Positions 39,571 through 56,867 of a stretch of DNA of 64,000 nucleotides are shown piece after piece. The DNA is from Mycobacterium branderi (GTDB lineage: Bacteria; Actinomycetota; Actinomycetes; Mycobacteriales; Mycobacteriaceae), in the NCBI RefSeq assembly GCF_010728725.1, contig NZ_AP022606.1, positions 4,836,001 to 4,900,000 of the forward strand, given 5' to 3'. The translations under genes and the position numbers were made by a program. Each line of letters starts with the position of its first letter. Position 1 is the stretch's first letter. Below the pieces are notes generated by a model, which ran no database searches, was not told the origin of the DNA, and worked only from the letters and a program-made list of their open reading frames with translations.

Positions 39571-39605
39571 CTTGTGGGGGTAGTACGCCACTGACCATTG
39601 ACCGC
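39571..39605 (+). repeat. Left terminal inverted repeat of the comM element
   Basis: Reading inwards the end begins CTTGTGGGGGTAGTACGCC and continues to CATTGACCGC. The right end read inwards on the minus strand shares CTTGTG, TAGTAC and CATTGACCG in the same order with different spacers, so these look like recombinase-binding subsites. Confidence 0.75.
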
Positions 39606-39712
39606 ATCTCTTTCAGGGCGTTTGCGTCGGAGTCATCTGTATTGGGTAAAAGGTTGCGGTAACGGTGTTTCCGGTTAGGGGTTGATTGGCGTGTGCTGGT
39701 CGATGCGACGTT

Positions 39713-40261
39713 TCAGGAGCCCATCATTCCGCGGCCGCCCATCATGGGGCCCATCATGGCGGGCATGCCGTCGGTGACGAAGCCGGTGACTTCTTGCGCG
39801 TGGGCGCGGATGGCGTTGGTGAGGTTGGGGTCGGTGGCGGTTTCGGTGGCGATTACACCGTTGGGAGTCAGCGTGATTCGGCGCTGGTAGTCAGGTGCGC
39901 GGCGAAACAGGGTGGGCAGGCTTTGGCTCATGCATGTCACTTCGGCGTCCTGGTCGAGATGTTGATACATCGACCCGACATGGGCGTGCAGTTGCGCGAC
40001 GAGGTCGGGCGCGTCGGATTCGGTGGTGGTGCGCACGCCTCCGGGGATGTTTTCGACGGTGCGCCGCAGTTCGCCGTGGCGAGCGAACATGGTCATGTAA
40101 CGGTCCATGTCGGTGCCTGAGACTCCACCCATCATGCCTGGCCCGTTGGCTCGACCGGCAGGCGTACGAATGGTGTTGGTGCGCAACAGGTATCCCACCA
40201 CGCCGATGGCGCCGGCAGTGCCGATCACGGCTAGTGCGGTGCGTCTGGTGAATTCGGGCAT
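39713..40261 (-). CDS. Exported Met-rich, probably metal-binding protein
   Basis: The 182-residue protein starts RRTALAVIGTAGAIGVVGYL, a Tat-like or anchor signal. The mature part has PGMMGGVSG, several conserved His residues (ARHGELRR, HAHVGSMYQHLD) and a C-terminus MPAMMGPMMGGRGMMGS. Met-rich clusters outside the cytoplasm commonly bind Cu(I)/Ag(I). No enzyme fold is recognised. It is the last gene at the left end of the element and probably belongs to the cargo. Confidence 0.65.
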   Translation of the reverse strand: MPEFTRRTALAVIGTAGAIGVVGYLLRTNTIRTPAGRANGPGMMGGVSGTDMDRYMTMFARHGELRRTVENIPGGVRTTTESDAPDLVAQLHAHVGSMYQHLDQDAEVTCMSQSLPTLFRRAPDYQRRITLTPNGVIATETATDPNLTNAIRAHAQEVTGFVTDGMPAMMGPMMGGRGMMGS

Positions 40262-40316
40262 GTGCGGCTGCTTTCGTGAGGGTGTCCTGCTCAGACCGCT
40301 TTGGCCACCGGGCAGA

Positions 40317-40955
40317 TCAGGTCATGGCGGCGGTTTTGTGGGCGACGACGCGTTCGACGAGGCCGAGTGTGAATCGTTCGACGCGGTCGATGTCGAGGTC
40401 GTTAGCGGCGCGGAGGTGGTTGAGGGGTCGGCGTAGGAAGTGTTCGCCGCCGAGCGGAACGGTGAATAGTTCGAGGAAGCGCTGCACGGCTCTGACGGGG
40501 GCGGCGCTGCTGCGGATGTGGTCGACCAGGATGAGCCTTCCGCCTGGGCGGAGTACTCGGGTCATTTCACTGAGGGCCTGGGTGTGGTCGGGGATGGCGC
40601 ACAGCCCGAAGGTGCAGACGACGGTGTCGAAGCTGGCGTCATCGAACGGCAGGTGGTGGGCGTCGGCTTGTTGCAGGGTGGCGGGGTGGCCGAGGTCAGC
40701 GGCGCGTTCACGGGCGAGGTCGAGCATCTGCTGGCTCCAGTCGATCCCGGTCAGCGTGACCTCTTTGGGGTAGAAGGGCAGGTTGAGGCCGGTGCCCACG
40801 GCGACTTCCAGTGTGGCGCCGGCGGCTTGGCTGCAGACCCACTGGCGGGAGTCGCCGAACAGGTGGCGGTCGAAGAAACCGATCTCCCGGTCGTAGGTGG
40901 CCGATTTCTTGTCCCAGTATCGGTTCCAGCGGGCGGCTCGATCATCCGTGGCCAT
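40317..40955 (-). CDS. Class I SAM-dependent methyltransferase (UbiE-like)
   Basis: The 212-residue enzyme contains the SAM motif TLEVAVGTGLNLPFYP, followed by TGIDWSQQMLDLAR, QADAHHLPFDDASFD and VLRPGGRLILVDHIR. It resembles methyltransferases often carried in metal-resistance clusters. It lacks the three conserved cysteines of ArsM, so it is not an arsenite methyltransferase by sequence. Substrate unknown. It follows the ICMT-like gene by 29 bp. Confidence 0.78.
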   Translation of the reverse strand: MATDDRAARWNRYWDKKSATYDREIGFFDRHLFGDSRQWVCSQAAGATLEVAVGTGLNLPFYPKEVTLTGIDWSQQMLDLARERAADLGHPATLQQADAHHLPFDDASFDTVVCTFGLCAIPDHTQALSEMTRVLRPGGRLILVDHIRSSAAPVRAVQRFLELFTVPLGGEHFLRRPLNHLRAANDLDIDRVERFTLGLVERVVAHKTAAMT

Positions 40956-40984
40956 AGTTCACCTCGCGGTCGGCGGTCAGATGG

Positions 40985-41587
40985 TCAGGCGTGTCTGATG
41001 TGGGGAACAAACCGGCCGACAGCTTCACAGTAGTCGCGGTAGGCCTGGCCGTGGACGGCGTTGAGGTAGGGCTCTTCGACCACGCGGACCTGCAGTTCGA
41101 TCGTGACCAGCAGGACGAGGAATGCCACCAGGGCGAGCGGGTTGGGGGTCATGAGGGTGATGCCGGCGGCGAAGATCAACATGGCCGTGAAGATCGGGTT
41201 GCGTACCAGCCCGAAGACACCATTGCGCACCAATGTGGTGGTTTCACTGGGGTCCACGCCGATGCGCCAGGACTCGCCCATGTCGCGTTGGGCGTAGAGG
41301 GTCGCGGCGATCCCGGCGACGGCGAGCACGGTCCCGACCGTCTGGATCCACAACGCATTCAACGTGGCGACTGGGGTGAGGATGCCGAGCAGCTGCAGCA
41401 GCGGTGCGGCCGCCCCGGTCGGGATGGCGGCAACGAATCCGGCGCCGGCGAACCATTCCAGCGATCCGGGCCGCCCGTGGATGCCACGGAATCCGGTCGA
41501 GCCGGTGTGGCGATATTGGGTCCAGCTGCGCCAGCCAAACCCCAAGACGGCGAAGACCAGGTAGAGGATGAGCGCGGTGATGGGCAT
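40985..41587 (-). CDS. Isoprenylcysteine carboxyl methyltransferase-like (ICMT/PEMT) membrane protein
   Basis: From ATG 41587 the product has 200 residues with about five transmembrane helices. The C-terminal catalytic region shows LVRNGVFGLVRNPIFTAML and RVVEEPYLNAVHGQAYRDYC, typical of the ICMT/PEMT fold with SAM bound between helices. Bacterial members are frequent in heavy-metal islands, but their substrates are undefined. It is divergent from the CmtR-like repressor and so probably metal-induced. Confidence 0.75.
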   Translation of the reverse strand: MPITALILYLVFAVLGFGWRSWTQYRHTGSTGFRGIHGRPGSLEWFAGAGFVAAIPTGAAAPLLQLLGILTPVATLNALWIQTVGTVLAVAGIAATLYAQRDMGESWRIGVDPSETTTLVRNGVFGLVRNPIFTAMLIFAAGITLMTPNPLALVAFLVLLVTIELQVRVVEEPYLNAVHGQAYRDYCEAVGRFVPHIRHA

Positions 41588-41675
41588 CGGGTGACGCTTC
41601 CTTCTGCTGTCGGGTCGGCCAACCGAGCGTGGCATCGTTTGTTGTCGATGTTGCCCGGTTTGACCGATCAGTAGT

Positions 41676-41691
41676 GATGAACGCTATCATC
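41676..41691. promoter_or_regulatory. Candidate CmtR-like operator
   Basis: GATGA (41676-41680) and TCATC (41687-41691) form an inverted repeat with a six-base spacer just before the GTG start at 41697, in the divergent region shared with the ICMT-like gene. Short arms make this tentative. Confidence 0.35.
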
Positions 41692-41696
41692 GTCGC

Positions 41697-42074
41697 GTGG
41701 CGATGAAAAGTGGTTCGGTCGATACCCCGGCGTGCGGGAGCCTGGATGCGGCGACGACGTTGTTTCACAGCCTCTCCGATGGCACCCGGTTGGCGATCCT
41801 GCGCCGCCTGGCGGGTGGTGAGGCTCGGGTGGTGGATCTGACCGGCGAGTTGGGGTTGGCGCAGTCGACGGTGTCGGCGCATCTGGCCTGCCTGCGGGAC
41901 TGCGGGCTGGTGGATTTCCGGCCGCAGGGCCGTGCCTCGGTGTATCGGCTGGCCCGCCCGGAACTGCTGGAGATGTTTCGGGCCGCCGAGGCGGTCTTGG
42001 AGGCCACCGGCAACGCGGTGGCGTTGTGCCCCAACTACGGCCACCCCACGGCACGGAAGAAGGCGGCGCGATGA
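41697..42074 (+). CDS. cmtR: CmtR-like ArsR-family Cd(II)/Pb(II) sensor
   Basis: The 125-residue winged-helix repressor begins at GTG 41697. C65 and C69 (HLACLRDCGLV) lie on the recognition helix and C111 (ALCPNYG) near the C-terminus. M. tuberculosis CmtR uses C57, C61 and C102 for cadmium and lead, with nearly the same spacing. The TGA overlaps the ATPase ATG, so sensor and pump are translationally coupled as in the CmtR-CtpG system. Confidence 0.85.
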   Translation: MAMKSGSVDTPACGSLDAATTLFHSLSDGTRLAILRRLAGGEARVVDLTGELGLAQSTVSAHLACLRDCGLVDFRPQGRASVYRLARPELLEMFRAAEAVLEATGNAVALCPNYGHPTARKKAAR

Positions 42075-44077
42075 GTGAGGCGTGCGGCTGCGGTGGCGAC
42101 GACCGCCCCAGCGAGGACGATCACGAACCCGAACGGCTCTGGGAGGTCAGCGAATTGCGCGCCGCCGCGGTGGCCGGTGTGGTGCTGCTGGCCGGGTATG
42201 TGGTCGGCTGGTCCGGCGGGCCCCGGCCGGTCGAACTCGGCCTGTATGCCGTGGCGCTACTGATCGGGGCTTACACGTTCGTGCCGTCGACGCTGCGCCG
42301 GTTGGCGCGGGGCAAGATCGGGGTGGGGACGCTGATGACGATCGCCGCGGTCGGCGCGGTGATCCTCGGCGAGGTCGGCGAGGCCGCCATGCTGGCGTTC
42401 CTGTTCTCGATCAGTGAGGGCCTCGAAGAATACTCACTGGCCCGCACCCGCCGCGGCCTGCGCGCGTTGTTGTCTCTGGTGCCCGATGAGGCCACGGTGC
42501 TGCGCGCCGGCACCGAAATCACCATCCCGGCAGGCGAGTTGGCGGTGGGTGACCGGATGCTGGTCAAGCCCGGTGAACGGGTCGCGACCGATGGCATCAT
42601 CGTTTCGGGCCGCACTGCGCTGGATGTTTCGGCGATCACCGGCGAATCCGTGCCGGTGGAGGCCGAGCCCGGCGATGAGGTGTATGCCGGGTCGATCAAC
42701 GGCACCGGAGTCCTCGAGGTCGAGGTCACCTCCACTGCCGCGGACAACTCGCTGGCCCGCATCGTGGCGATCGTGGAGGCCGAACAGTCCCGCAAAGGCG
42801 AAGCCCAGCGCCTGGCCGACCGCATCGCCCAACCCCTGGTCCCGGCGATCATGATCGTCGCGGCCCTCATCGCCGCCATCGGTTCCGTCGTTGGCGATCC
42901 TTTGGTGTGGATCGAACGGGCCCTGGTCGTGTTGGTGGCAGCTTCACCGTGTGCGCTGGCGATCTCAGTCCCGGTCACCGTGGTCGCTGCGATCGGCGCG
43001 GCCTCCAAGCTGGGCGTACTGGTCAAGGGCGGCGCTGCCCTGGAAGCTCTCGGTGCGGTCCGCACGATCGCGCTGGATAAGACCGGCACCCTGACCGCCA
43101 ACACACCGACCGTCATCGACGTGGCCACCACAGAGGGAGCGACCCGCGAGCAGGTCTTGAATGTCGCGGCCGCGTTGGAAGCGCGCAGTGAACACCCTTT
43201 GGCCGCAGCGATTCTCGCCGCCGCAGACCCGGCCGTCCCGGCGCAGGACGTGGAGGCGGTGACCGGCGCCGGTCTGATCGGGTATCGCGATGGCGGCCGG
43301 TTGCGGCTCGGGCGGCCCGGCTGGCTCGATGCCGGCCCGCTGGCCGAACGGGTCGCCGCGATGCAGGCCGCCGGGGCCACCGCGGTCCTCGTCGAAGACC
43401 ACGACACGCTGATCGGGGCGGTCGCGGTGCGTGACGAACTGCGTCCCGAAGCCGCCCACGTCGTCGCCCAGTTGCGTCGCGGCGGCTATCGGGTGGCGAT
43501 GCTCACCGGTGACAACAACGCGACCGCCCATGCCCTGGCGAAGCAGGTGGGGATCGATACCGTGCATGCCGACCTGCGGCCCGAAGACAAAGCCACGCTG
43601 ATCACTCAACTGCGCCAACACTCCTCGACGGCCATGGTCGGTGACGGCGTCAACGACGCCCCCGCCCTGGCCACCGCCGACCTGGGCATCGCGATGGGGG
43701 CGATGGGCACCGACGTGGCCATCGAAACCGCCGACGTCGCCTTGATGGGTGAAGACCTGCGCCACCTCACCCAAGCACTGGCCCACGCCCGGCGAGCGCG
43801 GCGGATCATGCTGCAAAACGTCGGCCTGTCCTTGGGTTTGATCACCGTGCTGATCCCGCTCGCCCTCACCGGCGTCCTCGGACTGGCCGCCGTGGTCGCA
43901 GTGCACGAACTCGCCGAAATCATCGTCATCGCCAACGGTGTCCGCGCCGGACGCACCAAACCCCTGGCAATCGCAGACCCGAACCGAGCGGCCGCCCCCC
44001 GACATTCTCAATCTGGGGACCGCACGTCACGGATCACCCCAGATTCAATGACAACGCGCATCCGCGGAACCAGATAG
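42071..44077 (+). CDS. ctpG: CtpG/CadA-like P1B-type metal-exporting ATPase
   Basis: Starting at ATG 42071 (overlap ATGA with cmtR), the protein has 668 residues. The N-terminus is short and metal-binding (SEACGCGGDD) rather than a full HMA domain. Visible motifs are AITGESVPVEA, the metal-site SPC (AASPCALAISVPV), phosphorylation DKTGTLT, SEHPLAAAI, GDGVNDAPALATADLGIAMG and helix-8 VAVHELAEIIVIANGVRAGR. SPC plus HE-type motifs point to the cadmium/cobalt/zinc-exporting branch. It would expel Cd, Pb or related cations across the inner membrane. Confidence 0.88.
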   Translation: MSEACGCGGDDRPSEDDHEPERLWEVSELRAAAVAGVVLLAGYVVGWSGGPRPVELGLYAVALLIGAYTFVPSTLRRLARGKIGVGTLMTIAAVGAVILGEVGEAAMLAFLFSISEGLEEYSLARTRRGLRALLSLVPDEATVLRAGTEITIPAGELAVGDRMLVKPGERVATDGIIVSGRTALDVSAITGESVPVEAEPGDEVYAGSINGTGVLEVEVTSTAADNSLARIVAIVEAEQSRKGEAQRLADRIAQPLVPAIMIVAALIAAIGSVVGDPLVWIERALVVLVAASPCALAISVPVTVVAAIGAASKLGVLVKGGAALEALGAVRTIALDKTGTLTANTPTVIDVATTEGATREQVLNVAAALEARSEHPLAAAILAAADPAVPAQDVEAVTGAGLIGYRDGGRLRLGRPGWLDAGPLAERVAAMQAAGATAVLVEDHDTLIGAVAVRDELRPEAAHVVAQLRRGGYRVAMLTGDNNATAHALAKQVGIDTVHADLRPEDKATLITQLRQHSSTAMVGDGVNDAPALATADLGIAMGAMGTDVAIETADVALMGEDLRHLTQALAHARRARRIMLQNVGLSLGLITVLIPLALTGVLGLAAVVAVHELAEIIVIANGVRAGRTKPLAIADPNRAAAPRHSQSGDRTSRITPDSMTTRIRGTR

Positions 44078-44100
44078 GCGGGTTCGGCGTCTAATCGGTT

Positions 44101-44223
44101 GTGGATGCTGAGGAACGTCAAGCGTTGGCCGATGAGGGTCTTGACCCCGACGACCCGCGGGTGCTGGAGGGGATTGATTTGGTGCGGTGGGAGTTGTCGC
44201 TTCTGCTCGATCAGGATGACTGA
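44101..44223 (+). CDS. Small acidic ORF (40 residues)
   Basis: GTG 44101 opens a frame ending TGA 44223: it begins VDAEERQALADEGLDPDDPR and continues through VLEGIDLVRWELSLLLDQDD. The composition is acidic and helical. It is 23 bp after the ATPase stop and overlaps the end of the convergent arsC-like gene by 13 bp. Its protein-like composition is the only evidence; no family is known to me. Confidence 0.4.
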   Translation: MDAEERQALADEGLDPDDPRVLEGIDLVRWELSLLLDQDD

Positions 44224-44630
44224 TCGGCGAGTTCGGCGGCGAGGGCCTGAACGCGAGTGTTGATGTCGTCGCGGATGATTCGCATGCGTTCGATCCCGTC
44301 GATGCCGCGTAGGGAGGGTTCGTCGGTGTCCCAGCGCTGGATGGTGGTGCCGGGGTGGTCGAGTTCGGCTTGGGTGCCGACGATGACGACCAGGTCCGCG
44401 TCGTCGAGCATCTGGTCGGTGAGTTGAACCGGTCGATGGTCGCTGATGTCGACGCCGATTTCGGCCAGAGCTTGTGCTGAGAGATCGTTGACGGCGGTCT
44501 TGGCGCGGGTGCCCGCCGAGGTGACGTGGATGGTTGGTCCTGCGATGTGGCGCATGAGTCCTGCTGCCATCACTGACTTTCCGGCATTGCTGACGCAGAT
44601 GAACAGGACGGTTGGGGGTGTGGTGGTCAC
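44211..44630 (-). CDS. arsC: Arsenate reductase, LMW-phosphatase fold with a CX5K loop (arsenate-mycothiol transferase-like)
   Basis: From GTG 44630 the product has 139 residues. The active loop reads FICVSNAGKSVMAAG: the nucleophilic cysteine and the Asn are present, but the arginine of CX5R is lysine. Corynebacterium ArsC1/ArsC2, which use mycothiol and mycoredoxin, have a similar CVGNGGKS loop as I remember. TSAGTRAK, the GVDISDHRP segment and LVVIVGTQAELDHPG follow. It lies last in the ars operon, 25 bp after arsN. Confidence 0.78.
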   Translation of the reverse strand: MTTTPPTVLFICVSNAGKSVMAAGLMRHIAGPTIHVTSAGTRAKTAVNDLSAQALAEIGVDISDHRPVQLTDQMLDDADLVVIVGTQAELDHPGTTIQRWDTDEPSLRGIDGIERMRIIRDDINTRVQALAAELADQSS

Positions 44631-44655
44631 CGGGTGTCTCCTTCGTGGTGGGCAG

Positions 44656-45159
44656 TCAGATGATGTGTGGGCTGCGCCGCTCCAGGAGGACGACGTCACG
44701 CCAGTGGCCGTGGAGTCGGCCGTGGCGCTCGCGCACCCCGACGACGCGGAATCCGGCCCGGTGGTGCAGGGCGAGCGTGGCGGTGTTCTCAGGAAACACC
44801 TGGCTTTGCAGTGTCCAGATTCCGGCGTTCTGGCTGGAGGTGATCACCGACTCCAGCAGCAGCGTCCCGATACCTTGGCCGCGCGCGTGCTCGGCGACAT
44901 ACACACTGAGCTCGATCACCCCGGCATGCACGCACCGTGAGGAGACAGGCGAAGCGGCAACCCATCCCATGACCTGTCCGCCAGGATCGGTGGCGACGAA
45001 GCGGTGATCCGGGAGGTGCTCGGCCTCGAAGGTTGCCCAGTCCGGAGCGTCGAGGTCGAAGGTGGCGTTTGCGGTGTTGATCCCGGCTTGGTAGATCGCC
45101 AGGACGGCATCGGCATGTTCGGCGGTCATCGGCGCCACCCGATGTTGACTGCGGATCAT
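44656..45159 (-). CDS. arsN: ArsN-like GNAT N-acetyltransferase (PAT family)
   Basis: From ATG 45159 the enzyme has 167 residues and matches the phosphinothricin acetyltransferase family: VAPMTAEHADAVLAIYQAGI, the acetyl-CoA loop ARGQGIGTLLLE and the ending HGHWRDVVLLERRS. In ars operons such enzymes (ArsN1) acetylate arsinothricin, an arsenic analogue of phosphinothricin, and confer resistance. That substrate is inferred from operon context. The longer frame to 45708 runs through arsC and is rejected. Confidence 0.75.
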   Translation of the reverse strand: MIRSQHRVAPMTAEHADAVLAIYQAGINTANATFDLDAPDWATFEAEHLPDHRFVATDPGGQVMGWVAASPVSSRCVHAGVIELSVYVAEHARGQGIGTLLLESVITSSQNAGIWTLQSQVFPENTATLALHHRAGFRVVGVRERHGRLHGHWRDVVLLERRSPHII

Positions 45160-45187
45160 CGCGACGGGTGCTTGTGCGGTGTGCTGG

Positions 45188-45856
45188 TCAACGGGTGACG
45201 GCGACGTTGAGGTCAGCAAGTAGCCGGTGGACGCGTTCTTCGATGTCGTCGCGGATCGGGCGCACAGCGTCGAGGCCTTGGCCGGCCGGATCGGGAAGCT
45301 CCCAGTTCTCGTAGCGTTTTCCGGGGAAGATCGGGCAGGCGTCCCCGCAGCCCATGGTGATGACGACGTCGGCGGCAGCCACGATTTCGTCGGTCCAGGG
45401 TTTGGGATATTCGCCGGTGATGTCGATACCGACCTCGGCCATGGCGGCGATTGCAGCCGGGTTGATCTCGTTGCCGGGTTCCGATCCACCGGACCAGGCC
45501 ACGGCGCGGTCACCCGCCATATGAGTGAAGTATCCGAGCGCCATCTGGGAGCGGCCGGCGTTGTGGGTGCACAGGAACAGCACGGTGGGTTTGCCGTCGC
45601 TGATCTTGCCCTCCACGCGGGCCAGGGCGTGCAGGCGTTGGCGGGCGAACCGTTCGGCCAGCAGCGGCAGGAAGTTGGGAATGGTGGCGCGGCCGGCGAA
45701 TTGGTCATACGACGAGCAGAGGAACCGTTCGATGGTCTCGGTGCCGAACGTGCCGTCGAACTCGCCGTGCAGCCGGGTCGCCGCGGTCTTCAAGGCGAGC
45801 TGTTGGTCGATCGAGAGGTCGTCGCGCAGTTGGTGGGTGACGGGGCTGTCGGTCAT
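45188..45856 (-). CDS. arsC: Arsenate reductase with an N-terminal three-helix domain
   Basis: The 222-residue protein has about 85 N-terminal residues forming a helical bundle (DQQLALKTAATRLHGEF, ERFLCSSYDQFAGRA) followed by an LMW-phosphatase-like domain with the complete loop LCTHNAGRSQMA, the WSGGSEPG segment, and MGCGDACPIFPGKRYENW where the second and third redox cysteines are expected. It reduces arsenate to arsenite for export by Acr3. The start overlaps the acr3 stop (ATGA). It differs clearly from the second arsC downstream. Confidence 0.87.
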   Translation of the reverse strand: MTDSPVTHQLRDDLSIDQQLALKTAATRLHGEFDGTFGTETIERFLCSSYDQFAGRATIPNFLPLLAERFARQRLHALARVEGKISDGKPTVLFLCTHNAGRSQMALGYFTHMAGDRAVAWSGGSEPGNEINPAAIAAMAEVGIDITGEYPKPWTDEIVAAADVVITMGCGDACPIFPGKRYENWELPDPAGQGLDAVRPIRDDIEERVHRLLADLNVAVTR

Positions 45857-46971
45857 GGGGTGGGTTCCGTTCTCGTCGTCGAGCCGTCGCTGGGCAGGTG
45901 TTGGGAGGTGTGGTGGTGAAACCGTTTACGCAGTGCCAGCGAGACGTAGACCAGCCCGACCAGGACCGGCACCTCGATCAGGGGGCCCACGACTCCGGCC
46001 AGGGCTTGACCGGAGGTGGCGCCGTAGGTGGCGATCGCCACCGCGATGGCCAGTTCGAAGTTGTTGCCGGCCGCGGTGAACGCCAGGGTGGTGGTCCGCT
46101 CGTAGCCGAGATCCAAGAAGGTGCCGAGCAGGTAGCCCCCACCCCACATGATCGCGAAATACGCCAGTAGCGGCAGGGCGATGCGGGCCACGTCCCAGGG
46201 CTGGTGGGTGATCTGATCTCCTTGCAGGGCAAAGAGAATCACGATGGTGAACAGCAACCCGTAGAGCGCCCACGGCCCAATCCGCGGCAAGAACTTCGAC
46301 TCATACCAGTCGCGGCCCTTGGTGCGTTCCCCGATGCGCCGCGACAGGTAGCCGGCCAGCAGTGGAATGCCGAGGAAGATGAGCACGGATTTGGCGATCT
46401 GCCACGGCGAGGTGTCGATGGTGGTTTGTTCCAAGCCGAGCCAGCCGGGCAGCACCGACAGGTAGAACCAGCCCAACGCCGCGAACATGATCACCTGGAA
46501 GATCGAATTGAGGGCGACCAGGACGGCGGCGGCTTCGCGGTCACCGCAGGCCAGATCGTTCCAGATGATGACCATGGCAATACATCTGGCGAGGCCGACG
46601 ATGATCAGCCCGGTGCGGTATTCGGGCAGATCCGGCAGCAGCAGCCAGGCCAGCGCGAACATCAACGCCGGGCCGAGCACCCAGTTCAACACCAGTGAGG
46701 ACAGCAGGAGTTTGCGGTCTCCGGTGACGGTGTCGAGGCGGTCGTAACGGACCTTGGCCAGGACCGGATACATCATGATCAACAGACCGAGGGCGATCGG
46801 CAGTGAAATGCCGTCGATCTGAACGCGTTCCAGCGCGGTGTTCAGGCCGGGGATCCAGCGGCCCAGCAGCAGGCCGGCGACCATCGCTGCGCCGATCCAG
46901 AGCGGTAGGAACCGGTCGAGGGTGGAGAGCTTTCCGACCACCGGCGGTGCGGCAGTCGTGGTGTCGGTCAT
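45853..46971 (-). CDS. acr3: Acr3-type arsenite efflux permease
   Basis: The 372-residue protein has ten transmembrane helices. The conserved GLARCIAMVIIWNDLACG contains the cysteine essential in Acr3 proteins, and AGNNFELAIAVAIATYG holds the conserved glutamate. Acr3 exports arsenite driven by the proton gradient. ATG 46971 overlaps the arsR stop, and its stop overlaps arsC, giving a coupled arsR-acr3-arsC unit. Confidence 0.92.
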   Translation of the reverse strand: MTDTTTAAPPVVGKLSTLDRFLPLWIGAAMVAGLLLGRWIPGLNTALERVQIDGISLPIALGLLIMMYPVLAKVRYDRLDTVTGDRKLLLSSLVLNWVLGPALMFALAWLLLPDLPEYRTGLIIVGLARCIAMVIIWNDLACGDREAAAVLVALNSIFQVIMFAALGWFYLSVLPGWLGLEQTTIDTSPWQIAKSVLIFLGIPLLAGYLSRRIGERTKGRDWYESKFLPRIGPWALYGLLFTIVILFALQGDQITHQPWDVARIALPLLAYFAIMWGGGYLLGTFLDLGYERTTTLAFTAAGNNFELAIAVAIATYGATSGQALAGVVGPLIEVPVLVGLVYVSLALRKRFHHHTSQHLPSDGSTTRTEPTP

Positions 46972-47351
46972 GCCGGCACTCCCGCCATGGTGTGAGCGGT
47001 GGTCGTTCCGAGGAGTACTGCCAGGCTGGCCAGCGTTTCGGGCACCACCGCGTAATACACCCAGGAGGCCCGGCGCTGCGAGGTCAGCAGGCCGGCGTCG
47101 CGCAAGACTTTGAGGTGGTGGCTGATGGTCGGTTGTGACACCTCGATGTCGGCGGAGATGTCGCAGACGCAGGCCTGGCCGCCAGCGTGGCTGGCGATCG
47201 CCGAAAACAGCTGCAGCCGCACCGGATCGGCCAGGGCTTTCAGTTTGACCGCCATATCGGCGGCGGCCGCGGCCGTGAGGGGTTCGTGCAGCAGCGCCCC
47301 GGGTGGGCAACACGCATCTTGGTCGGGCAGCAACTCCTGCGGTTTCGACAT
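46968..47351 (-). CDS. arsR: ArsR arsenite-responsive repressor
   Basis: The 127-residue winged-helix protein has the ArsR core LKALADPVRLQLFSAIASH and SQPTISHHLKVLRDAGLL. The As(III) site is suggested by ACVCDIS just before the recognition helices, and DACCPPG near the N-terminus provides a further cysteine pair. It is the first gene of the ars operon and probably autoregulatory; an inverted repeat lies just upstream. Confidence 0.88.
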   Translation of the reverse strand: MSKPQELLPDQDACCPPGALLHEPLTAAAAADMAVKLKALADPVRLQLFSAIASHAGGQACVCDISADIEVSQPTISHHLKVLRDAGLLTSQRRASWVYYAVVPETLASLAVLLGTTTAHTMAGVPA

Positions 47352-47352
47352 A

Positions 47353-47379
47353 CATCGATATTGATGGATGTCGAATCAA
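47353..47379. promoter_or_regulatory. Probable ArsR operator of the ars operon
   Basis: CATCGATATTGATG (47353-47366) is an imperfect palindrome directly upstream of arsR, followed by a second TTGAT/ATCAA pair up to 47379. The core CATCGATAnTTG recurs in front of the chromosomal arsM/arsR pair at 61774, suggesting similar repressor recognition. Confidence 0.5.
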
Positions 47380-47519
47380 TCGTCAAGGTGGCCGACGGTG
47401 AACAACACCCCAACGAATCGTGGCCGCGGTGGTGTGGTTGCGCTGGCTGCGCGGATGTGCGAGGTTGCGCTGCGTGTTCTTGGATCAAGGGCGGGTCGGG
47501 TCGTCGCATCGGGTTAGTG

Positions 47520-48347: not shown

Positions 48348-48414
48348 CCGGCCCGATTGCGCTGAGGTGGCGGTACTGCGCCAGTCTCGGTCGGCGACAG
48401 CGCTCAATGTGCGC

Positions 48415-48452
48415 CGGGGTTGCCCATCATCACGGTGCGATGGGCAACCCCG
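48415..48452. terminator. Perfect 14-bp hairpin between convergent genes
   Basis: CGGGGTTGCCCATC (48415-48428) is complementary to GATGGGCAACCCCG (48439-48452) around a ten-base loop. It lies between the TSUP permease and the cadI-like gene, which point at each other, so it can serve both. Confidence 0.75.
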
Positions 48453-48467
48453 AGCCCTAACGAGTAC

Positions 48468-48956
48468 TCAGCAGCACGACGCGGCGCTGGCCGGCTGGCC
48501 CGCCTCGCTGGCCGCGGCGGCACCGCCGCAGCACACCCCGCCGGTGTCCTCGCCGGATTCGTCGAGGTGCTGGGGGCTGGTGCCGAAGGTGTCGGAGTCG
48601 GCCAGCACGGTGTAGACCTCCCATTTCTCCCCGGCCGGGCCGGTCACCCAGACCTTGTCCTGGGTGGCGAAGCAACAGGTGGTGCCGATTTCCTCGTCGG
48701 TGAACAGGCCCTCGCCGGTCAGGCGGGCGATCTCGGCGTGCACCTTGTCGCTGGACTCCACCTCCACGCCGAGGTGGTTGATGGTGCCACCCTTACCGGG
48801 GTTTTCCAGCAGCACCAGTTTCAGCGGCGGCTCGGCCACGGCGAAGTTGGCGTAGCCCGGCTTCACCTTCGCCGGATCGACGCCAAACAGTTTGGTGTAG
48901 AACGTGATCGCCTCATCGAGATCGTCGACGTTGAGGGCGAGTTGAACACGGGACAT
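48468..48956 (-). CDS. cadI: CadI/ArsI-family VOC metal-resistance protein
   Basis: From ATG 48956 the protein has 162 residues with a vicinal-oxygen-chelate fold (SRVQLALNVDDLDEAITFYT, INHLGVEVESSDKVHAEI). The pair GTTCCFATQDKVWV corresponds to the vicinal cysteines of ArsI C-As lyases. The C-terminus is cysteine-rich (GVCCGG and a final ASCC), probably an extra metal site. M. tuberculosis CadI (Rv2641) is cadmium-inducible and lies next to arsR Rv2642, the same pairing as here. Confidence 0.85.
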   Translation of the reverse strand: MSRVQLALNVDDLDEAITFYTKLFGVDPAKVKPGYANFAVAEPPLKLVLLENPGKGGTINHLGVEVESSDKVHAEIARLTGEGLFTDEEIGTTCCFATQDKVWVTGPAGEKWEVYTVLADSDTFGTSPQHLDESGEDTGGVCCGGAAAASEAGQPASAASCC

Positions 48957-48978
48957 GATCCACCTCCACTGGTGATGA

Positions 48979-49033
48979 GACATATATCGAACTGACGCGT
49001 CGACCTCAGAATGCCACCTTTTCGATATATGTC
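48979..49033. promoter_or_regulatory. Two identical 13-bp ArsR-type sites in inverted orientation
   Basis: GACATATATCGAA at 48979-48991 and its exact reverse complement TTCGATATATGTC at 49021-49033 lie 29 bp apart between the divergent cadI-like and arsR genes. Each gene start thus has its own copy, a clear two-site operator arrangement for the adjacent repressor. Confidence 0.75.
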
Positions 49034-49056
49034 AAGAGTTGTGGCAGGATGGGCGC

Positions 49057-49416
49057 ATGCCCAAAGCGCTGCCCGTGATCGACATGTCTGCGCCGGTGTG
49101 CTGCGCCCCGGTGGCTGCCGGGCCGCTCAGCGATGCCGACGCGCTGCAGGTGGCGATGCGGCTCAAGGCGCTCGCCGACCCCATGCGGGTCAAGATCATG
49201 TCTCTGCTGTTCAGCTCGCGCCCCGGGGAGGAGACTAGCGGGGATCTCGCGGCTGTTCTCGACCTGAGCGAATCCACGGTCAGTCATCACCTGGGCCAGC
49301 TCCGCAAAGCCGGGCTGGTGATCTCCGACCGACGCGGCATGAACGTTTTTCACCGGGTGAAACCTGAAGCGCTGCAAGCACTCTGCGTGGTTTTGGACCC
49401 TAACTGCTGTACCTGA
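49057..49416 (+). CDS. arsR: ArsR-family repressor paired with cadI (Rv2642-like)
   Basis: From ATG 49057 the product has 119 residues: a winged helix with LKALADPMRVKIMSLLF and SESTVSHHLGQLRKAGLV. The usual CVC motif is replaced by GEETSGDL, while cysteines occur at the N-terminus (PVCCAPV) and at the very C-terminus (PNCCT). So the metal site may be formed by terminal cysteine pairs. It probably controls itself and cadI through the sites at 48979-49033. Confidence 0.83.
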   Translation: MPKALPVIDMSAPVCCAPVAAGPLSDADALQVAMRLKALADPMRVKIMSLLFSSRPGEETSGDLAAVLDLSESTVSHHLGQLRKAGLVISDRRGMNVFHRVKPEALQALCVVLDPNCCT

Positions 49417-49446
49417 TCATTGGGTTGCCTGCGGTTGCTCGATCTA

Positions 49447-49857
49447 TCAGTTCGATGGCGGTCGGCTTGGTCGTCGCCGATCGATCGAGGTCGTATTGGT
49501 AAGCGCCTCGATTTCTTTGCGGAGGTCGTGGTTCTCCAGCGTTAGTCGTTGGATGTTGGCGATTGCGAGTTCGCAGTTGCTCTTCCAGTCGCGTAGTTCG
49601 CTGCGTAATCGGTCGTTCTCCTTTTTCAGTTGGTCGAATCTGGTCGGTTGCGTGTCAACATCCGGGCTGGTCTCCCGCTGGGGTTGCTTGAGTTCGGCGA
49701 CGATGTCGGGGAAGTTCCGCCGGAACGTGGTGTTGGCGATTCCGAGCCGACGAGCGACGGCGAAGGCCGTCGCGGGGCGCCCGGTCGCATCGCTGACGGC
49801 AGTGATCGCTGTGTGCACCTCGTCGATCGTCGGCAGGTGTGTCTGACGAGGGCTCAC
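49447..49857 (-). CDS. Small HTH/coiled-coil transposition accessory protein (TnpC/DUF6262-like)
   Basis: The 136-residue protein has an N-terminal helix-turn-helix-like part (DATGRPATAFAVARRLGIAN, TTFRRNFPDI) and a long coiled coil with heptad Leu/Ile (DQLKKENDRLRSELRDWK, IQRLTLENHDLRKEIEAL). Such proteins accompany tyrosine recombinases in Tn554-type transposons as TnpC. Its start overlaps the end of the third recombinase by four bases. It probably shapes the synaptic complex or directs orientation; this is inference. Confidence 0.7.
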   Translation of the reverse strand: MSPRQTHLPTIDEVHTAITAVSDATGRPATAFAVARRLGIANTTFRRNFPDIVAELKQPQRETSPDVDTQPTRFDQLKKENDRLRSELRDWKSNCELAIANIQRLTLENHDLRKEIEALTNTTSIDRRRPSRPPSN

Positions 49858-51922
49858 GATGCTGGGCTTGTCCCTTCGAGGAATGCCTGGATACGGTCCC
49901 GTCGTCTGACGAGTCGCGCCCGCAGCAGTGGCGGTAAGTGGTCCGGGTGTTCGAGCTGGGTGTTGATCTTGTCGGCTTCACGGCCTAACGCGGCGGTGTT
50001 GTCTTGGGTGAGGGCCACGTTGGCGCAGTCCAGGGGTTGGCAATCGGCGAGGTTGGGCGTGTCAGCACGGGCACCTTTCTTCAAACACAATGCCTTGGAC
50101 GGATCGAAGACGCAGTTCACGTATGTGCCGGGATAGATTTCGGGGTCATTGCGCTTCATCAGGCGTTTAAGTCGGTGGGAATCGGTGGTGGCGATGCCTT
50201 CAAATCGCGCTGTGCGGCCGAGTTCGTCGAGTCGTCGCGTGGCTTCCTCGGCGGCCGGGCCGACCAAGGGGTGCTGGTGGGCGTCGGTGAGCGGGAGCAA
50301 TCGCTCACCGCGGGCCAGCGCCTGTTCAGACTCGACCTCGGCGCGGAAACCCGATGCCGACGTTCCTGCATAGCCCTCGAACATTTGGATGCTCAGGTGC
50401 CGGTACTGGATAGCCCCCGCGATCGATCCGCCTGGTTGGCGGGCGATGAACCATGCCAGTGTTCGACGGAACTGCCGGGTCGACAACGTCCAGGGCTTGC
50501 GTTGACCAGTGGGATGTCGTCCGGTCGGCCATGGGTGGCGCAGTAGTCGTTGATCCAGCTGACCAGCTCTTTGAACCGCTTGTTGGTGCACTTGGTGGTT
50601 TGTGCCCTGTTCGGTGAGTTCTTGGTCGGGCCAACGGCATTGCTGTGTTCCAGATGCGAGAACAGCAGCGGCCGGTCGGCGGAATGGAGACGTCCCAGGA
50701 CTCGCGCTGCGCGGGCCGCTGGGTGACCGACAACCCATGTCGCCGCGGTGCCCGAGGGATCCTGCTGGGCTTTGAACGCCCGGCCTGCGATACGCCATCG
50801 ATAGGGTTCGCCGTCAGCGGAGCGGAGTTCGGTCACGCATCCCCGTTGCAGGTGTTTCATTTCGCTGTCGCGCATCCCGGACAAGAAGGCGATGACGACG
50901 TAGCAGCTGGTTTGGAGCAGCCGGGCAAGTTGGCTTAGCGATTGGCTGGGGTGTTCCAAGGCTATGCCGTCAACCCAGGGCCGGTCATCGATGCGTCCCG
51001 TGATCGTGATGGGTAGCCATGTGTGGTCGGCGATTCCGAGTTGGTCGGCTGCCTCAGCGAGCTGCGGTGCGTAACGGTGCAGACTGCTGTAGTGGCAGCC
51101 GACCTCGGTGGAGATGAACTGCAGATTGAGCTCCCCGTTTCGCCCCGGCAAAGGCTCACCCCTGCCGATGGCGGTGGCGAGGTAGCGCTCAACGTCGGTG
51201 CCGATGCCGTCGTTGCGGCCGACACGGCCGTTGGCGACGCTCGATCGGTAGCGCCGCCACGATGCGTCTGCCGCGAGGATGTCTGCAGCGAAGTCGTCGA
51301 CGAATCTCAATGCCCACGCCAGCAGCGGCCCGAGAACCGGCTCGGGGATGCGGTCTGTGGTGTTCTCGGCCGTCGTGCGTGAGCGCTGCGACCAGCCGTC
51401 GATCGTGCGTGGGTTGACCAATAGCGGGTCGCTCATCGCGGTGCGATATCGCCATAGCAGCTGCACGGCGCCGCGGGCGCCCGCCTGTCCGGCTGTCATC
51501 GTGGCGATGTGCCGGTTGTAGTCCTCGAGATGGCCTTCGTTGAGCTCTGCCAGCTTGTGCGGCTTGGGCCGGCGCGGACGGTCATCGGGTAGGTCGTCGA
51601 CCCAATTGAGGAACTGGCACACGCATTTGAAGGCTGTGCGGATCGTCAGAACGGAGAGGCGACGCTCACCCGGGGGCAGTGTTCCCGACAGGATGGCCAT
51701 GCATAGCTCTTTGGCCTGGTGTCGGAAGCGTGGGCGGACTGTATCGAAGTAGAGAGTCACAGTGGGCCAATGGTGTTGCAGCACTGCGGGAGCGAGATCC
51801 CACCGGTCATCGTCGAACACCGACGTGTCAGCCAGCTCGACCCCTGGTCTGAGCTGACGGTTGGCCAACACCCACCGCGGCTTCTCCTCGTGCGCCGATG
51901 CATCGGCCAACGGATGCGTCAT
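49854..51922 (-). pseudogene. Third tyrosine recombinase of the element, with a single-base frameshift
   Basis: The frame from ATG 51922 encodes a core-binding domain and the first catalytic Arg region (IAFLSGMRDSEMKHLQRG). Near 50499-50500, after DIPLVN, the frame shifts; the expected continuation KPWTLSTRQFRRTLAWFIAR with catalytic Arg and IQYRHLSIQMFEGYAG with the probable Tyr lies in the frame ending 49854. One missing G restores LVNGKPWTLS. Reconstructed length is about 690 residues, similar to the large TnpB of Tn554-type elements. C-terminal CVFDPSKALC and CQPLDCANV may bind zinc. The start overlaps the second recombinase (ATGA). Confidence 0.8.
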
Positions 51923-53724
51923 GGCCGCTCCCAGGGACCTTCGGCGACCTCCAGCAGCTGGTGCTGGGCGGCCTGTTCGGCTGCAGCATCGACTTCTTCC
52001 GGAGTGAACTTCGGAAGTACGTCATACCGTATTGCCGCCCAGGCTGACCCGTAGCGTTGCCACCACTCGTCCTCGCCAAGGGTGGTTCGGCGCCGAGTAA
52101 ACGTGTCCATGAGCGCCACCAGGGCGGGCAGGTGCGTGCGGGTGATCAACGCGTTGGCGCAGTGAAAGCAGTCAAGAAACGACACATCACGGCAGGGGCG
52201 CCCCGTCTCGGGCCGTTGCTCAGGGTCGGTGCATGCCGTCCAGGCCCCGTGTTGCAGATCCGTATCCTGCGCATCAGGCTCGACGACGAGTTCGGCAATG
52301 CGTTTCCGATGCGCGGCCAGAGCGGACTGCTCGGCATCGACAACGGCATCGCTGACGACGTCTTCGGCCCAGTCTTTCACCGTGGGATCGCCCTGTAGGT
52401 AATTGCTGAACAGCACGTTGGTGGTGTTGGACCGAATCGACGACGGCAGATGTCCACCGAGTCGTCGTGTTCGCCGGACCTCCACGGTGGTCCGGATACG
52501 CCCTATGTCGATCGCCAATGCCGGCGCTGGACCATCCGTTTCACTAGGCTCGGCCCGCAGGTCATGCGTTGCCGCCCACCGCCGAAACTCCAAGCCGGCG
52601 TCTAACCGGCGGGCGAACGGGTCGTGGTGTTCGCGCAGAGAACCGATCGGCGGATCGGTGCGGCCGTTGCGCCAGACCGACCACACCGACTGCGATCCCG
52701 TCAGGGCTCGCCCCCGAGCCATCAGCCGATGCATCAGCAGGTAAAGCCCACCCGGTGTGTGCAGCTCACGATGCGGCGGGCCGATCTCCCAGGTGACGGT
52801 GTCATGCCAGCGCTGCAGTCCACGACGCCGCTTCACGACCAACAGCTCGACAGCCAGACCATCGTCGAGAATCCGGTGCTCGACGGGCAATTCCTTGATC
52901 GTTTCGGCGTTGCGACCGCTGAGGGCTGCCATCAAGACGAGTAGGGGTTCCCGGTCCGAGCGTGTTACGAAAATCTGCTGGGCCAGCTGCGTTCTTCGGA
53001 TCCGCTCCTGATCGTTCAGGGTGACCGGAATCCGAGGCACCAGACCGGTTTCAGCGATGCCGGCAAGCGTCCGCATCACCTCCGCCTGCTCTGGACTGAA
53101 AACCTCGGGTGTGGACTGCCACGTCGCCAACTGCGCCTCACCATGGTCGATACGGTCACGCAGGGCCGCGACATCACGACGTGCGGCGGCCGTTAGTGCG
53201 GCGAACTCGCCGTCGGAATAACCCGGCCGCGGCGGCAACGTCAAGTTGATCCTCTGGGCGGCAAGACTGTGCACCGCCGACGAGATCATCGAGGCCAGCG
53301 GCTCCTGACGAAACAGCAACCGCAGTTCCTCCAGCTCCTTCACGCCCCATCGGTCACGATCGGTGAGGAACTGCTTGACGTGCTCCTCGACAAGTTCACC
53401 AGGAGATGCCGGCGGAGAATCAGCCCGGGCCAGGAAGTGCACGAAACGCTGCACCGGGTACCACGCCGCCCTCGCCGAGGCCAGCGTCCGACGCCGACCA
53501 GAGGGTCCAACGAATGCTGCGAAAGCTGCCGCCACCGGCCGTCGCCACTGCGGTAGCGGCAGCTTGCTGACATCGAAAGTTCCTGTGCGCCCGTCATCCC
53601 CGGTGAACAACACCCGTAGTCCCCGGCCATCGTCGATCACCGTCGCAGCGTGCTCGTAACCTGGCGCAGGCAGCTGTGCAGCCCGACCAGCATGGGTTCC
53701 CCCACCACGTTTGCGGTCCGCCAT
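51919..53724 (-). CDS. Second tyrosine recombinase of the element, divergent
   Basis: From ATG 53724 the protein has 601 residues. A core-binding-like domain (ARAAWYPVQRFVHFLARADS) precedes a large catalytic-like half with LLVLMAALSGRNAETIKEL (first Arg) and RRLGGHLPSSIRSNTTNVLF followed by SNYLQGD (candidate Tyr). The usual HxxR box is not obvious, so it may be a partner subunit rather than a catalyst. C-terminal CRDVSFLDCFHCAN may bind zinc. It overlaps the first recombinase stop by one base and the third start by four. Confidence 0.8.
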   Translation of the reverse strand: MADRKRGGGTHAGRAAQLPAPGYEHAATVIDDGRGLRVLFTGDDGRTGTFDVSKLPLPQWRRPVAAAFAAFVGPSGRRRTLASARAAWYPVQRFVHFLARADSPPASPGELVEEHVKQFLTDRDRWGVKELEELRLLFRQEPLASMISSAVHSLAAQRINLTLPPRPGYSDGEFAALTAAARRDVAALRDRIDHGEAQLATWQSTPEVFSPEQAEVMRTLAGIAETGLVPRIPVTLNDQERIRRTQLAQQIFVTRSDREPLLVLMAALSGRNAETIKELPVEHRILDDGLAVELLVVKRRRGLQRWHDTVTWEIGPPHRELHTPGGLYLLMHRLMARGRALTGSQSVWSVWRNGRTDPPIGSLREHHDPFARRLDAGLEFRRWAATHDLRAEPSETDGPAPALAIDIGRIRTTVEVRRTRRLGGHLPSSIRSNTTNVLFSNYLQGDPTVKDWAEDVVSDAVVDAEQSALAAHRKRIAELVVEPDAQDTDLQHGAWTACTDPEQRPETGRPCRDVSFLDCFHCANALITRTHLPALVALMDTFTRRRTTLGEDEWWQRYGSAWAAIRYDVLPKFTPEEVDAAAEQAAQHQLLEVAEGPWERP

Positions 53725-55241
53725 CAGCGGGTGACCGCATGGCCGGAAGCAGGCGCGTGATCGACTTCGGCGGTCCGCCCCGGGTGCTCCCATGTCTCGG
53801 GCACCAGCGCCATCCGTGTATGCATCTCAAGTTCGGCCAAGGCGTGCAAGTACTTCTGCGTAGTCACCACCGAACGATGGCCTAGACGGCGTCGCACCCA
53901 ATCAAGAGGGTCGCCGAAGATTCGGGTGTAGTGGCCACGCTGGTCAGGGTTGAGGTCGCCAAGCGCAGCGATACGGCCGCGTTGCAGCTGCTCCAGGGTA
54001 ACGACCGCGAAGGTATGCCGAAGCATGTGGGCATGTGCCGCCAACGTGACCCCCGCACGCACGCACCGATCATTGGCGTCCGCGAACATCTTCTTCCATG
54101 AGTCGACCGATATCGGTGCACCGAACTCGCCGAGCCAAATCGCTGCTGGCTCAAGTCCTGACGGCCTTTCCACGAACAATCGACGGCGCTCGGCTAACCC
54201 AAGGTGCGCAACCTTCACTATGGACTTGGCGCCGCTGCCAAGCCCGACCGTCGCAACAGGCCGCGCTGGATTCTCGACCACATAGGGGCGCCGCACCCGC
54301 CGATACCTGCCATCACTCTGAGCGAACTCGATCACCGCCCTCCGGTCATCCCGCATGTACGCGGCCATTTCCCTTACCAGCGACGAAGGCACGTAAATCC
54401 AGCGCGCAGAGCGCCCCTTCGCAATGGCCGGAGGCAGCCAAAATCGTTGATAACCCTCACTCTCGACGATCGAGGGAACGTCAAACACAGTCAGTGCAGC
54501 CTGCTCGGAAATCCGCAGCCCCGTCCGGACCATGAAATCGCAGAACAATGCGTTGCGGTCAGCCCATCGACCTCGAAAGCCCGTTTGAGGCAGTCCTTTC
54601 GAGCTAAACCCACGCACACCGACATCTCGCCACCGCCGATAGTCCTCGGGAGGTAACCATTTCGTTCGATCGCGAACCACGTCCGACGCATAGGTGGCTG
54701 GGCGCAGCTCATCAAGCACACCGCGGTAACCTCGGCCCGCGCTAACAGGCACAGGTCGTCTCGATGCTTGCGGTATCGGACTTGCATGGACAAGTCCCTG
54801 TTTCAATGCCCAGCGAAAGAACTCATTGACCGCAGCGACTTCACGGTTCCACGTCGCACCCAACACATTCGGGCCTGAAGGATCACGCCGACGCCAGAAG
54901 TGGTACGCAATGTGATCAGCTTCGTCGAGATCTTTCCAGGATCGCCCGGACCGTCGCCGCTCAGCAAAAGTCAAGAAGGCAGCGAGATCGCGAGCGTAGC
55001 CCTCCTGAGTCTTGAGGGCACGACCAATCATCGCCCCGGATTGGAAGTACGCATTCAACTCGATGTCGTACTCCAGTCGCGGGGACAAGAGGAACGGCGT
55101 CCCCGGCACAATCGCAGCTCGCCGAAGCCACCCGTCCCAGTCACCGGGCAAGTCGGCCACGAACGGCAGTGGGGCGATCACCGCCTCCGGCTCCATAGGA
55201 GTGGACCTCACCAACCACCGGTCTGCAGCCACAGCCAGCAT
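53724..55241 (-). CDS. First tyrosine recombinase of the element
   Basis: From ATG 55241, just inside the right terminal repeat, the protein has 505 residues. It has an N-terminal core-binding domain (KTQEGYARDLAAFLTFAERR) and a complete catalytic domain: FMVRTGLRISEQAAL, HAHMLRHTFAVVTLE and RRLGHRSVVTTQKYLHALAE with the nucleophilic Tyr. It is the most canonical of the three and probably performs strand exchange. TTG 55253 is an alternative start lying within the repeat. Confidence 0.88.
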   Translation of the reverse strand: MLAVAADRWLVRSTPMEPEAVIAPLPFVADLPGDWDGWLRRAAIVPGTPFLLSPRLEYDIELNAYFQSGAMIGRALKTQEGYARDLAAFLTFAERRRSGRSWKDLDEADHIAYHFWRRRDPSGPNVLGATWNREVAAVNEFFRWALKQGLVHASPIPQASRRPVPVSAGRGYRGVLDELRPATYASDVVRDRTKWLPPEDYRRWRDVGVRGFSSKGLPQTGFRGRWADRNALFCDFMVRTGLRISEQAALTVFDVPSIVESEGYQRFWLPPAIAKGRSARWIYVPSSLVREMAAYMRDDRRAVIEFAQSDGRYRRVRRPYVVENPARPVATVGLGSGAKSIVKVAHLGLAERRRLFVERPSGLEPAAIWLGEFGAPISVDSWKKMFADANDRCVRAGVTLAAHAHMLRHTFAVVTLEQLQRGRIAALGDLNPDQRGHYTRIFGDPLDWVRRRLGHRSVVTTQKYLHALAELEMHTRMALVPETWEHPGRTAEVDHAPASGHAVTR

Positions 55242-56307
55242 GTATACGGTCAATGACCGGTACTACACAAGTGAGCACCAGCTGAAACCGGGCCGGGTAG
55301 CAGGCCACCCCGTCGCGACGGGCGAGGCGAATCTGCCCGTCCTCCAACGGTGTTCGCAATGCCTCCAATGCGCTGACGCCGATCTCGGCGCACTCGTCGA
55401 GGAACAGCACGCCGCGATGCGCCCGGCTGACGGCGCCGGGCCGGGCGAGTCCCGACCCGCCGCCGACGAGCGCGGCGACGCTGGAGCTGTGATGCGGCGC
55501 CACGAACGGCGGCCTGGTGATCAGCGGCGTGGCATCCGACAGCAGACCGGCGACCGAGTGGATCGCGGTGACCTCCAGCGACTCGCTGTCCGACAGTGGC
55601 GGCAGCAGACCCGGAAGACGTTGGGCCAGCATCGTTTTGCCGACTCCCGGCGGGCCGGTCAGCATCAGGTGATGCGCGCCGGCGGCGGCCACCTCGACGG
55701 CGAAGCGCGCCTGCGCCTGTCCGACGACGTCGGCCAGATCCGCCGTGGGCTCCGGCGCGGTGATTGCCCCGGTGATGCGCTCGGCCAGTTTCGCCTTGCC
55801 GCCGAGCCAGGCCCGCAACTGGCCCAGCGTCTGCAAGCCCAAGACCTCGATGCCGTCGACCAGGCTTGCCTCGGCCAGGTTCTCGACCGGCACCACGACG
55901 GTGTGCCAGCCGTCATTCTTGGCCGCCAGCACCGCCGGCAGCACGCCGCGCACCGGCCGGACCCGGCCGTCCAGCGCCAATTCGCCCAGCAGCACCACGG
56001 ACTCCAGCCGCCGCCACGGTTTTTTTCGCTGCGCGGACAGCACGGCCGCCGCCAAGGCGACGTCGTACACCGAGCCCATCTTCGGCAGGGTGGCCGGTGA
56101 GAGCGCCAGTGTGAGGCGGGCCTGCGGCCATTGGTTGCCACAGTTGGTGATCGCCGCCCGCACCCGGTCGCGGGATTCCTGCAGCGCGGCGTCCGGCAAG
56201 CCGACCAGGTGCACGCCAGGCAGTCCGGAGGTGATGTGGGCTTCGATCTCCACGATCTCGCCGTCCAACCCACGCACCGCCACCGAAAATGCGCGTCCCA
56301 GCGCCAT
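55141..56307 (-). pseudogene. comM: comM (YifB Mg-chelatase-like ATPase), 5' fragment
   Basis: ATG 56307 overlaps the yraN stop (TGATG). About 345 host codons encode the N-terminal Lon-protease-like domain (MALGRAFSVAVRGLDGEIVE onwards), Walker A GPPGVGKTML and Walker B GVLFLDECAEI, ending at YPARFQLVL at 55274. The frame continues 44 codons into the element (TCVVPVIDRIHAGCGC) to a stop at 55141. The product lacks the C-terminal third including NPCPC. ComM is a helicase acting on branch migration during recombination in transforming bacteria; it should be inactive here. Confidence 0.92.
55244..55271 (-). repeat. Right terminal inverted repeat of the comM element
   Basis: On the minus strand the end reads inwards CTTGTGTAGTACCGGTCATT then GACCG. 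It matches the left end in three blocks (CTTGTG, TAGTAC, CATTGACCG). Immediately outside, after two extra bases, host comM sequence AGCACCAGCTG resumes. Confidence 0.75.
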
Positions 56308-56537: not shown

Positions 56538-56549
56538 CACTGGTGGAAG

Positions 56550-56568
56550 GCACGTATTCGAAGTGTGC
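56550..56568. repeat. Left-end palindromic recombinase site
   Basis: GCACGTATTCGAAGTGTGC has arms GCAC/GTGC around TTCGAA, about 12 bases inside the yraN junction. A related site occurs near the other end. On the minus strand both share ACAYTTCGAA as a direct repeat. Confidence 0.5.
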
Positions 56569-56607
56569 GCTATTCGTCGCGTCAACATCTGAGTCACCCA
56601 CCACGTG

Positions 56608-56850: not shown

Positions 56851-56867
56851 TGTCGTTCTCCTGTTCG

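Follow-up and report, generated by a model that had tools for sequence, protein, structure and literature searches.

The gene comM is the site of AbaR-type resistance islands in Acinetobacter, which use Tn7-like DDE transposition. Its product helps recombination of transformed DNA, and the transposon Tsy, described together with Tn6022 and TnsF, has been found in comM (Faure et al., 2023; PMC10293859). Tyrosine-recombinase insertion into comM is thus not itself new. GInt genomic islands, with the genes ginABCD, have been named from Proteobacteria, Verrucomicrobia, Bacteroidetes, and Firmicutes in a search that was non-exhaustive by its own statement (Bardaji et al., 2017; PMC5385486), and Tn554-related transposons have been described from Actinobacteria (Van Houdt et al., 2012; PMC3414803). 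Here we describe a comM gene of Mycobacterium branderi that is split by a GInt-like island of the ginABCD type. It lies in a stretch of 64,000 nucleotides of contig NZ_AP022606.1 (positions 4,836,001 to 4,900,000), called the window, to which the coordinates refer. The island carries predicted arsenic and cadmium genes. It likely entered comM at codon 345 in a site-specific manner, with the predicted tyrosine recombinases that it encodes as the agents.

Interruption of comM and its recurrence

In the window, comM is interrupted at Leu345 (QLVL|AANP) by an island of 15,702 bp (39572-55273). The 5′ part of the gene (55274..56307, minus strand) holds codons 1-345, read from 56307 to 55273, and ends with RFQLVL, and the 3′ part (39091..39571, minus strand) runs from LAANPCPC, which begins at 39570, to the stop codon. 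In blastn comparison with two relatives of 90-92% identity (G673 and G458), the halves stop at 39571, resume at 55274, and share 3 bp, AGC, in the relative; the two copies of this direct repeat lie at 39569..39571 and 55274..55276. Thus the island spans 39572-55273 and entered without loss of host bases. An earlier note, made from the sequence without database searches, had described a 15.7-kb element in comM and host codons that rejoin as QLVLAANPCPC; both statements hold against the relatives, and its start, given as 39571, has to be moved by one base. The island is absent from relatives at loci L072, L073, and L125, the last from genome G732, where the site is likewise uninterrupted, and another uninterrupted relative (L038) reads CAGCTGGTGCTGGCCGCCAACCC across it. 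A search of the whole genome for ChlI (PF13541) gave the window comM and two far weaker matches in other proteins, and the two halves were the sole matches to a 114-aa comM query at E <= 1e-8. The N-terminal part retains Walker A and Walker B and lacks the C-terminal domain, so that ComM function would be lost by the insertion. The interrupted motif QLVLAANP presumably contains the ATPase sensor-1 asparagine. To call it strictly conserved, as the note did, is too strong, because AANLCPC stands in place of AANPCPC at 7 comM loci from 6 genomes.

The 114-aa query covers Walker B and the cut site, and was applied to one genome per species of the genus, 392 in all; the survey detects splits inside this span only, and outliers were picked by eye from the number and score of matches. 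It gave a match in 374 genomes and none in 18. In four genomes, comM is split within the span: that of the window, G665, G678, and G739. G665 and G678 are cut at the same motif as the window, with halves about 26 and 25.5 kb apart, respectively. In both, ginABCD begins beside the C-terminal part of comM, in the orientation opposite to that of the window island. The operon of G665 encodes GinA, GinB, and GinC of 583, 584, and 702 aa and a GinD-like open reading frame (ORF), and that of G678 encodes GinA, GinB, GinC, and GinD of 524, 654, 742, and 130 aa. The crossover lies in the Leu345 codon for both the window and G678. GinA identity is 52% between the window and G678, 29% between the window and G665, and 31% between G665 and G678, and such distances make separate entries into comM most likely. 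With distantly related islands inserted at this point, or a few bases from it, in two further species, comM is probably a site at which such islands land repeatedly. The search of mycobacterial genomes that the earlier note proposed, for intact comM and the same junctions, thus yielded both empty relatives and, in two other species, insertions into the same motif.

Other insertions into comM fall at Walker B. In G739 (L069, L070), comM is cut there by a 24-kb element with a three-gene module read by eye as Tn554-like and with predicted copper genes; the latter were also assigned by eye, apart from a P-type ATPase identified by match. A survey of the family comprised 251 genomes (21 of them of the genus), of which 245 matched; it likewise detects splits inside the 114-aa span, with outliers picked by eye. 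Six outliers were examined, and Walker B is the cut point in three of them, namely G166 and G070 (together L140-L143) and G084 (L139). The inserts of G166 and G070 have terminal genes read by eye as serine integrases and phage-type genes, and that of G084 is about 2 kb long. Apparent local frame breaks were found in comM of G037 and G193, a diverged but unbroken span in G033, and one uninterrupted span match each in three earlier outliers (G438, G463, and G504).

Two observations stand apart. In G585 (L126), a comM fragment of roughly 260 bp with the cut-site motif (9290-9552) lies some 7 kb from an intact comM and is possibly the trace of a past insertion. The genus genomes with no comM match include six of 3.1-3.3 Mb (G462, G494, G683, G559, G722, and G472) and three larger complete ones of 4.0-5.9 Mb (G423, G475, and G655).

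Recombination genes, ends, and cargo of the island

The recombination operon lies at one end of the island, on one strand (minus), in the order ginA-ginB-ginC-ginD. It starts with a ginA-like tyrosine recombinase gene (53724..55253; 509-aa ORF), followed by a ginB-like gene (51919..53793; 624-aa ORF, start uncertain). The ginC-like gene is divided between two frames, with an N-terminal part at 50393..51922 and a C-terminal part at 49854..50798, and the frame break falls between about 50450 and 50500. The ginD-like gene (49447..49857) encodes a coiled-coil-like protein of 136 aa, 36% identical to GinD of G678 and 31% to that of G665, whose leucine-zipper matches are weak and below cut-off. The earlier note had read this as an operon of three recombinases. 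The recombinases are as it described them, but the third gene does not stand as one frame. Of 16 relatives examined, 15 have both ginC pieces in a single frame, G665 and G678 among them; L089 is split, and L082 is truncated at its end. Tyrosine-recombinase machinery, also claimed by the note, agrees with the ginABCD order and with the Phage_integrase match of GinA (2.4e-10). GinA is assigned to these enzymes by Pfam, GinB by fold, and GinC, more tentatively, by residues in its relatives and weak Pfam matches. The GinC relatives retain SGMRDSE, TRQFRRTLAW, YRH, and EGY-type residues, as read by eye from the alignment, and 3 of 12 of them (set A2) match Phage_integrase at E <= 1 (best 0.0011). 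Sequence searches of PDB with GinB and GinC profiles gave no matches. All four gin genes are required in Pseudomonas (PMC5385486), and since ginC is broken here, the window copy is probably immobile and no longer able to move by itself. A second operon of the ginABC type was observed on the other contig of the same genome (L074, G000:C2:468000-487000), with GinA 34% identical and ginC in one frame.

The end on the ginA side (55238..55273, minus strand) reads CTTGTG..GTAGTAC..GGTCATTGACC. At this place, all seven relatives examined show (C/T)TTGTGCA, followed by GGTCA-TGACC in three and by a diverged form in four. Near-identical operons of relatives have the same ginA-side end at different sites, and the constancy of this end beside differing flanks sets the boundary. 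The far end is a stretch of 92 bp (39572..39663, plus strand) with a G+C content of 0.52, against 0.65 for the island, and it repeats the ginA-side end imperfectly, in inverted orientation. From these features, a route of entry can be proposed. In the circular form, CTTGTG-type inverted ends would lie on either side of a CT core, and the recombinases would pair this junction with the comM motif encoding QLVLAANP. Because both ends are alike, entry would be possible in either orientation. ComM would be lost on insertion, and the host would gain genes that may guard against arsenic and cadmium.

The cargo stretch (39664..49414) was annotated with NCBIfam and Pfam profiles. Above the cut-offs of these collections are an ACR3 arsenite efflux transporter (45853..47379, minus; match at residues 151-479 of the ORF; TIGR00832, 456 bits, cut-off 283), an ArsI/CadI metalloenzyme (48468..48983, minus; NF041414, 222 bits, cut-off 116), and a cadmium-family heavy-metal P-type ATPase (42026..44077, plus; TIGR01512, 513 bits, cut-off 313.5). 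The other metal genes, some of them below equivalog cut-offs, are three ArsR-type regulators (49039..49416, plus, whose plasmid copy is annotated "Rv2640c family"; 46968..47351, minus, above the cut-off of NF033788; and 41697..42074, plus, an ArsR/SmtB metalloregulator that is CmtR-like and below the CmtR cut-off), two arsenate-reductase-like proteins (45188..45856, minus, with an N-terminal helical domain, below equivalog cut-offs; and 44211..44699, minus, a low-molecular-weight phosphatase, below cut-offs), and an ArsN1-type N-acetyltransferase (44656..45160, minus, start approximate; NF040503, 135.5 bits, below the cut-off of 170). In addition, there is a TauE/SafE-type permease (47187..48347, plus, ORF start uncertain; PF01925, 1.4e-25). 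Near the far end lie a PEMT/ICMT-type methyltransferase (40985..41635, minus), a class I methyltransferase (40317..40955, minus), and a 182-aa protein of no family (39713..40261, minus), which is present in one plasmid copy (L127). The matches bear out the cadmium and arsenic resistance genes of the earlier note, which spoke of about ten metal-resistance genes, and the cargo would protect against both metals.

Separate pieces of this stretch, together making up much of it, are also present on plasmids of mycobacteria. On an M. intracellulare plasmid (L127, NZ_LT703506.1), the pieces amount to 49% of the island at 84-93% identity, and on an M. gilvum plasmid (L128, NC_014811.1) to 45%, with main pieces at 86-90%; overall the copies are about 88% identical DNA. 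The ArsN1-like and TauE genes have no match on either plasmid, and both plasmid stretches contain additional genes. The plasmid block adjoins two recombinases, beside which a DUF6262 protein is annotated on the M. intracellulare plasmid. These recombinases gave no tblastn match to ginA, ginB, or ginC of the window at 1e-4. Two unrelated sets of recombination genes are thus linked to largely the same cargo, which suggests that cargo moves between transposon types.

Weighing of the explanations

The plasmid copies bear on another explanation, namely that the island is a transposon of the Tn554 type (TnpA, TnpB, and TnpC) with an extra recombinase gene nearby. It would account for much of the same cargo standing beside two recombinases, with a DUF6262 protein in one record, and it agrees with the presence of a module read as Tn554-like in comM of G739 and of Tn554-like elements in mycobacteria (PMC3414803). 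However, three large recombinase genes follow one another in the window, together with the small one, this four-gene order recurs in G665 and G678, and the plasmid recombinases do not match those of the window at 1e-4. A plain Tn554 transposon was rejected, and the explanation as a whole is unlikely. A Tn7-like insertion was also rejected, as no such genes were seen among the ORFs read or scanned, although no search was aimed at them. An insertion that is old and dead and that a single lineage has kept by descent, with the link to comM due to chance and the other comM islands to coincidence, would fit the broken ginC and the many sites that close ginA relatives occupy. This is improbable given that three divergent ginABCD islands lie within about 6 nt of each other in a 1.5-kb gene. 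Moreover, the near relatives G673, G458, and G732 are without the island, so the insertion is probably recent in this lineage. As for an artefact of assembly that joined two contigs, the alignment of each half with relatives extends as far as its junction, where the 3-bp repeat lies, and the same arrangement is found inside single contigs of two other assemblies. The window contig itself is 5.1 Mb long, in a 5.98-Mb genome of two contigs that is 100% complete, and such an artefact was rejected as hardly credible.

Entry of a GInt-like island by its own recombinases remains the preferred explanation, and several results weigh against it. The terminal inverted repeat is statistically weak, since 15 of 500 shuffles reach its gapped alignment score, and the cut in G665 lies about 6 nt from the crossover of the window and G678. 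The window ginC is frame-broken. The GinA profile matched neither the GinB nor the GinC profile with significance, and Foldseek alone gave no GinB match below 1e-3. GInts carry imperfect direct repeats of 10-17 nt, as described in PMC5385486, and the island has only the 3-bp AGC. Neither excision nor transfer of the island was seen. Finally, no comM half was found in the fetched flank at 29 other ginA places of the family sample (L005-L036, three in duplicate; flanks of L016 and L022 shortened by contig ends). Thus the nearest relatives, at 58-63% GinA identity, do not have comM as their fixed site, and the idea that these also sit in comM was ruled out.

The comM locus among known systems

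Beside comM, a second and separate element of 4,227 bp (56539..60765) splits yraN. It encodes a tyrosine recombinase in the YRec position (59485..60603, minus), an HTH_26 protein (59159..59680, minus), and a TnsF-like protein of 764 aa (56868..59162, minus) with a cysteine-pair array and a tyrosine-recombinase fold. The same insertion is found in G732 (L125), where comM is whole, and the 764-aa protein has a 93% match in named mycobacteria. A PDB search with its profile gave weak matches to zinc sites and cytochromes (best E 0.018), and a profile-profile comparison with GinA gave nothing. The order YRec-HTH-TnsF is common to Tsy and this element, and both have a TnsF-like protein with zinc fingers and a tyrosine-recombinase fold, a likeness of order and fold; the targets differ, being Walker B of comM for Tsy and yraN here. 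Next to it, a stretch with an ArsM-like methyltransferase (60995-62177) is unmatched at this place in L073, which points to one more small indel beside yraN. Tentatively, the yraN-comM-dprA competence locus of mycobacteria and their family might be a shared landing pad for unrelated recombination systems. Elements might gain there, since a broken ComM would stop their replacement through DNA uptake, while swappable cargo blocks would pass between recombination modules. This idea would cover ginABCD islands at QLVL|AANP, Tn554-like islands and serine-integrase prophages at Walker B, and the Tsy-like element in yraN.

The likeness of the comM island to GInts comes from gene order and build. In both, three recombinases, predicted ones in the island, and a small protein are encoded in the same order and direction at one end, and cargo for metal or antibiotic resistance begins right at ginD, here about 30 bp from it. 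Both have a short AT-rich far end, which is the 92-bp stretch in our case, and in both, distant lineages share one site (PMC5385486). The sites described for GInts are an ABC transporter gene, ssb, and a ribonucleotide reductase gene, whereas the island is in comM. All four gin genes are complete in GInts, and the GinC relatives of the island appear to keep recombinase residues, unlike GinC as described for GInts (PMC5385486). The island has a broken ginC and lacks the 10-17-nt repeats, and for these reasons it is called GInt-like and not a GInt. With Tn554 relatives, it has in common tyrosine recombinases, a small protein of the TnpC type, and much of the cargo found beside such genes on plasmids, but that family has two recombinases, TnpA and TnpB, with TnpC (PMC3414803), and the island has three large recombinase genes.

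Searches of the open-access literature turned up neither a comM gene nor a mycobacterium reported to carry a ginABCD-type island, in agreement with the earlier note, which knew of none described in a mycobacterial comM. The island places ginABCD-type islands in Actinobacteria, a phylum that is not listed in the GInt literature examined. In G665 and G678, ginC is in one frame, so that site specificity can be tested without the broken copy. The gene comM would be a place to seek resistance islands well beyond Acinetobacter, whose AbaR-type islands, to our knowledge, have no gin genes. As in Tsy and Tn6022, proteins related to tyrosine recombinases would target comM at a conserved ATPase motif. 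Those elements hit Walker B (PMC10293859), whereas this island, whose genes are different, lies at QLVL|AANP, about 40 codons further on. In the literature examined, Walker B is the only comM target on record, and the island extends it by a second conserved motif and by an element of another kind.

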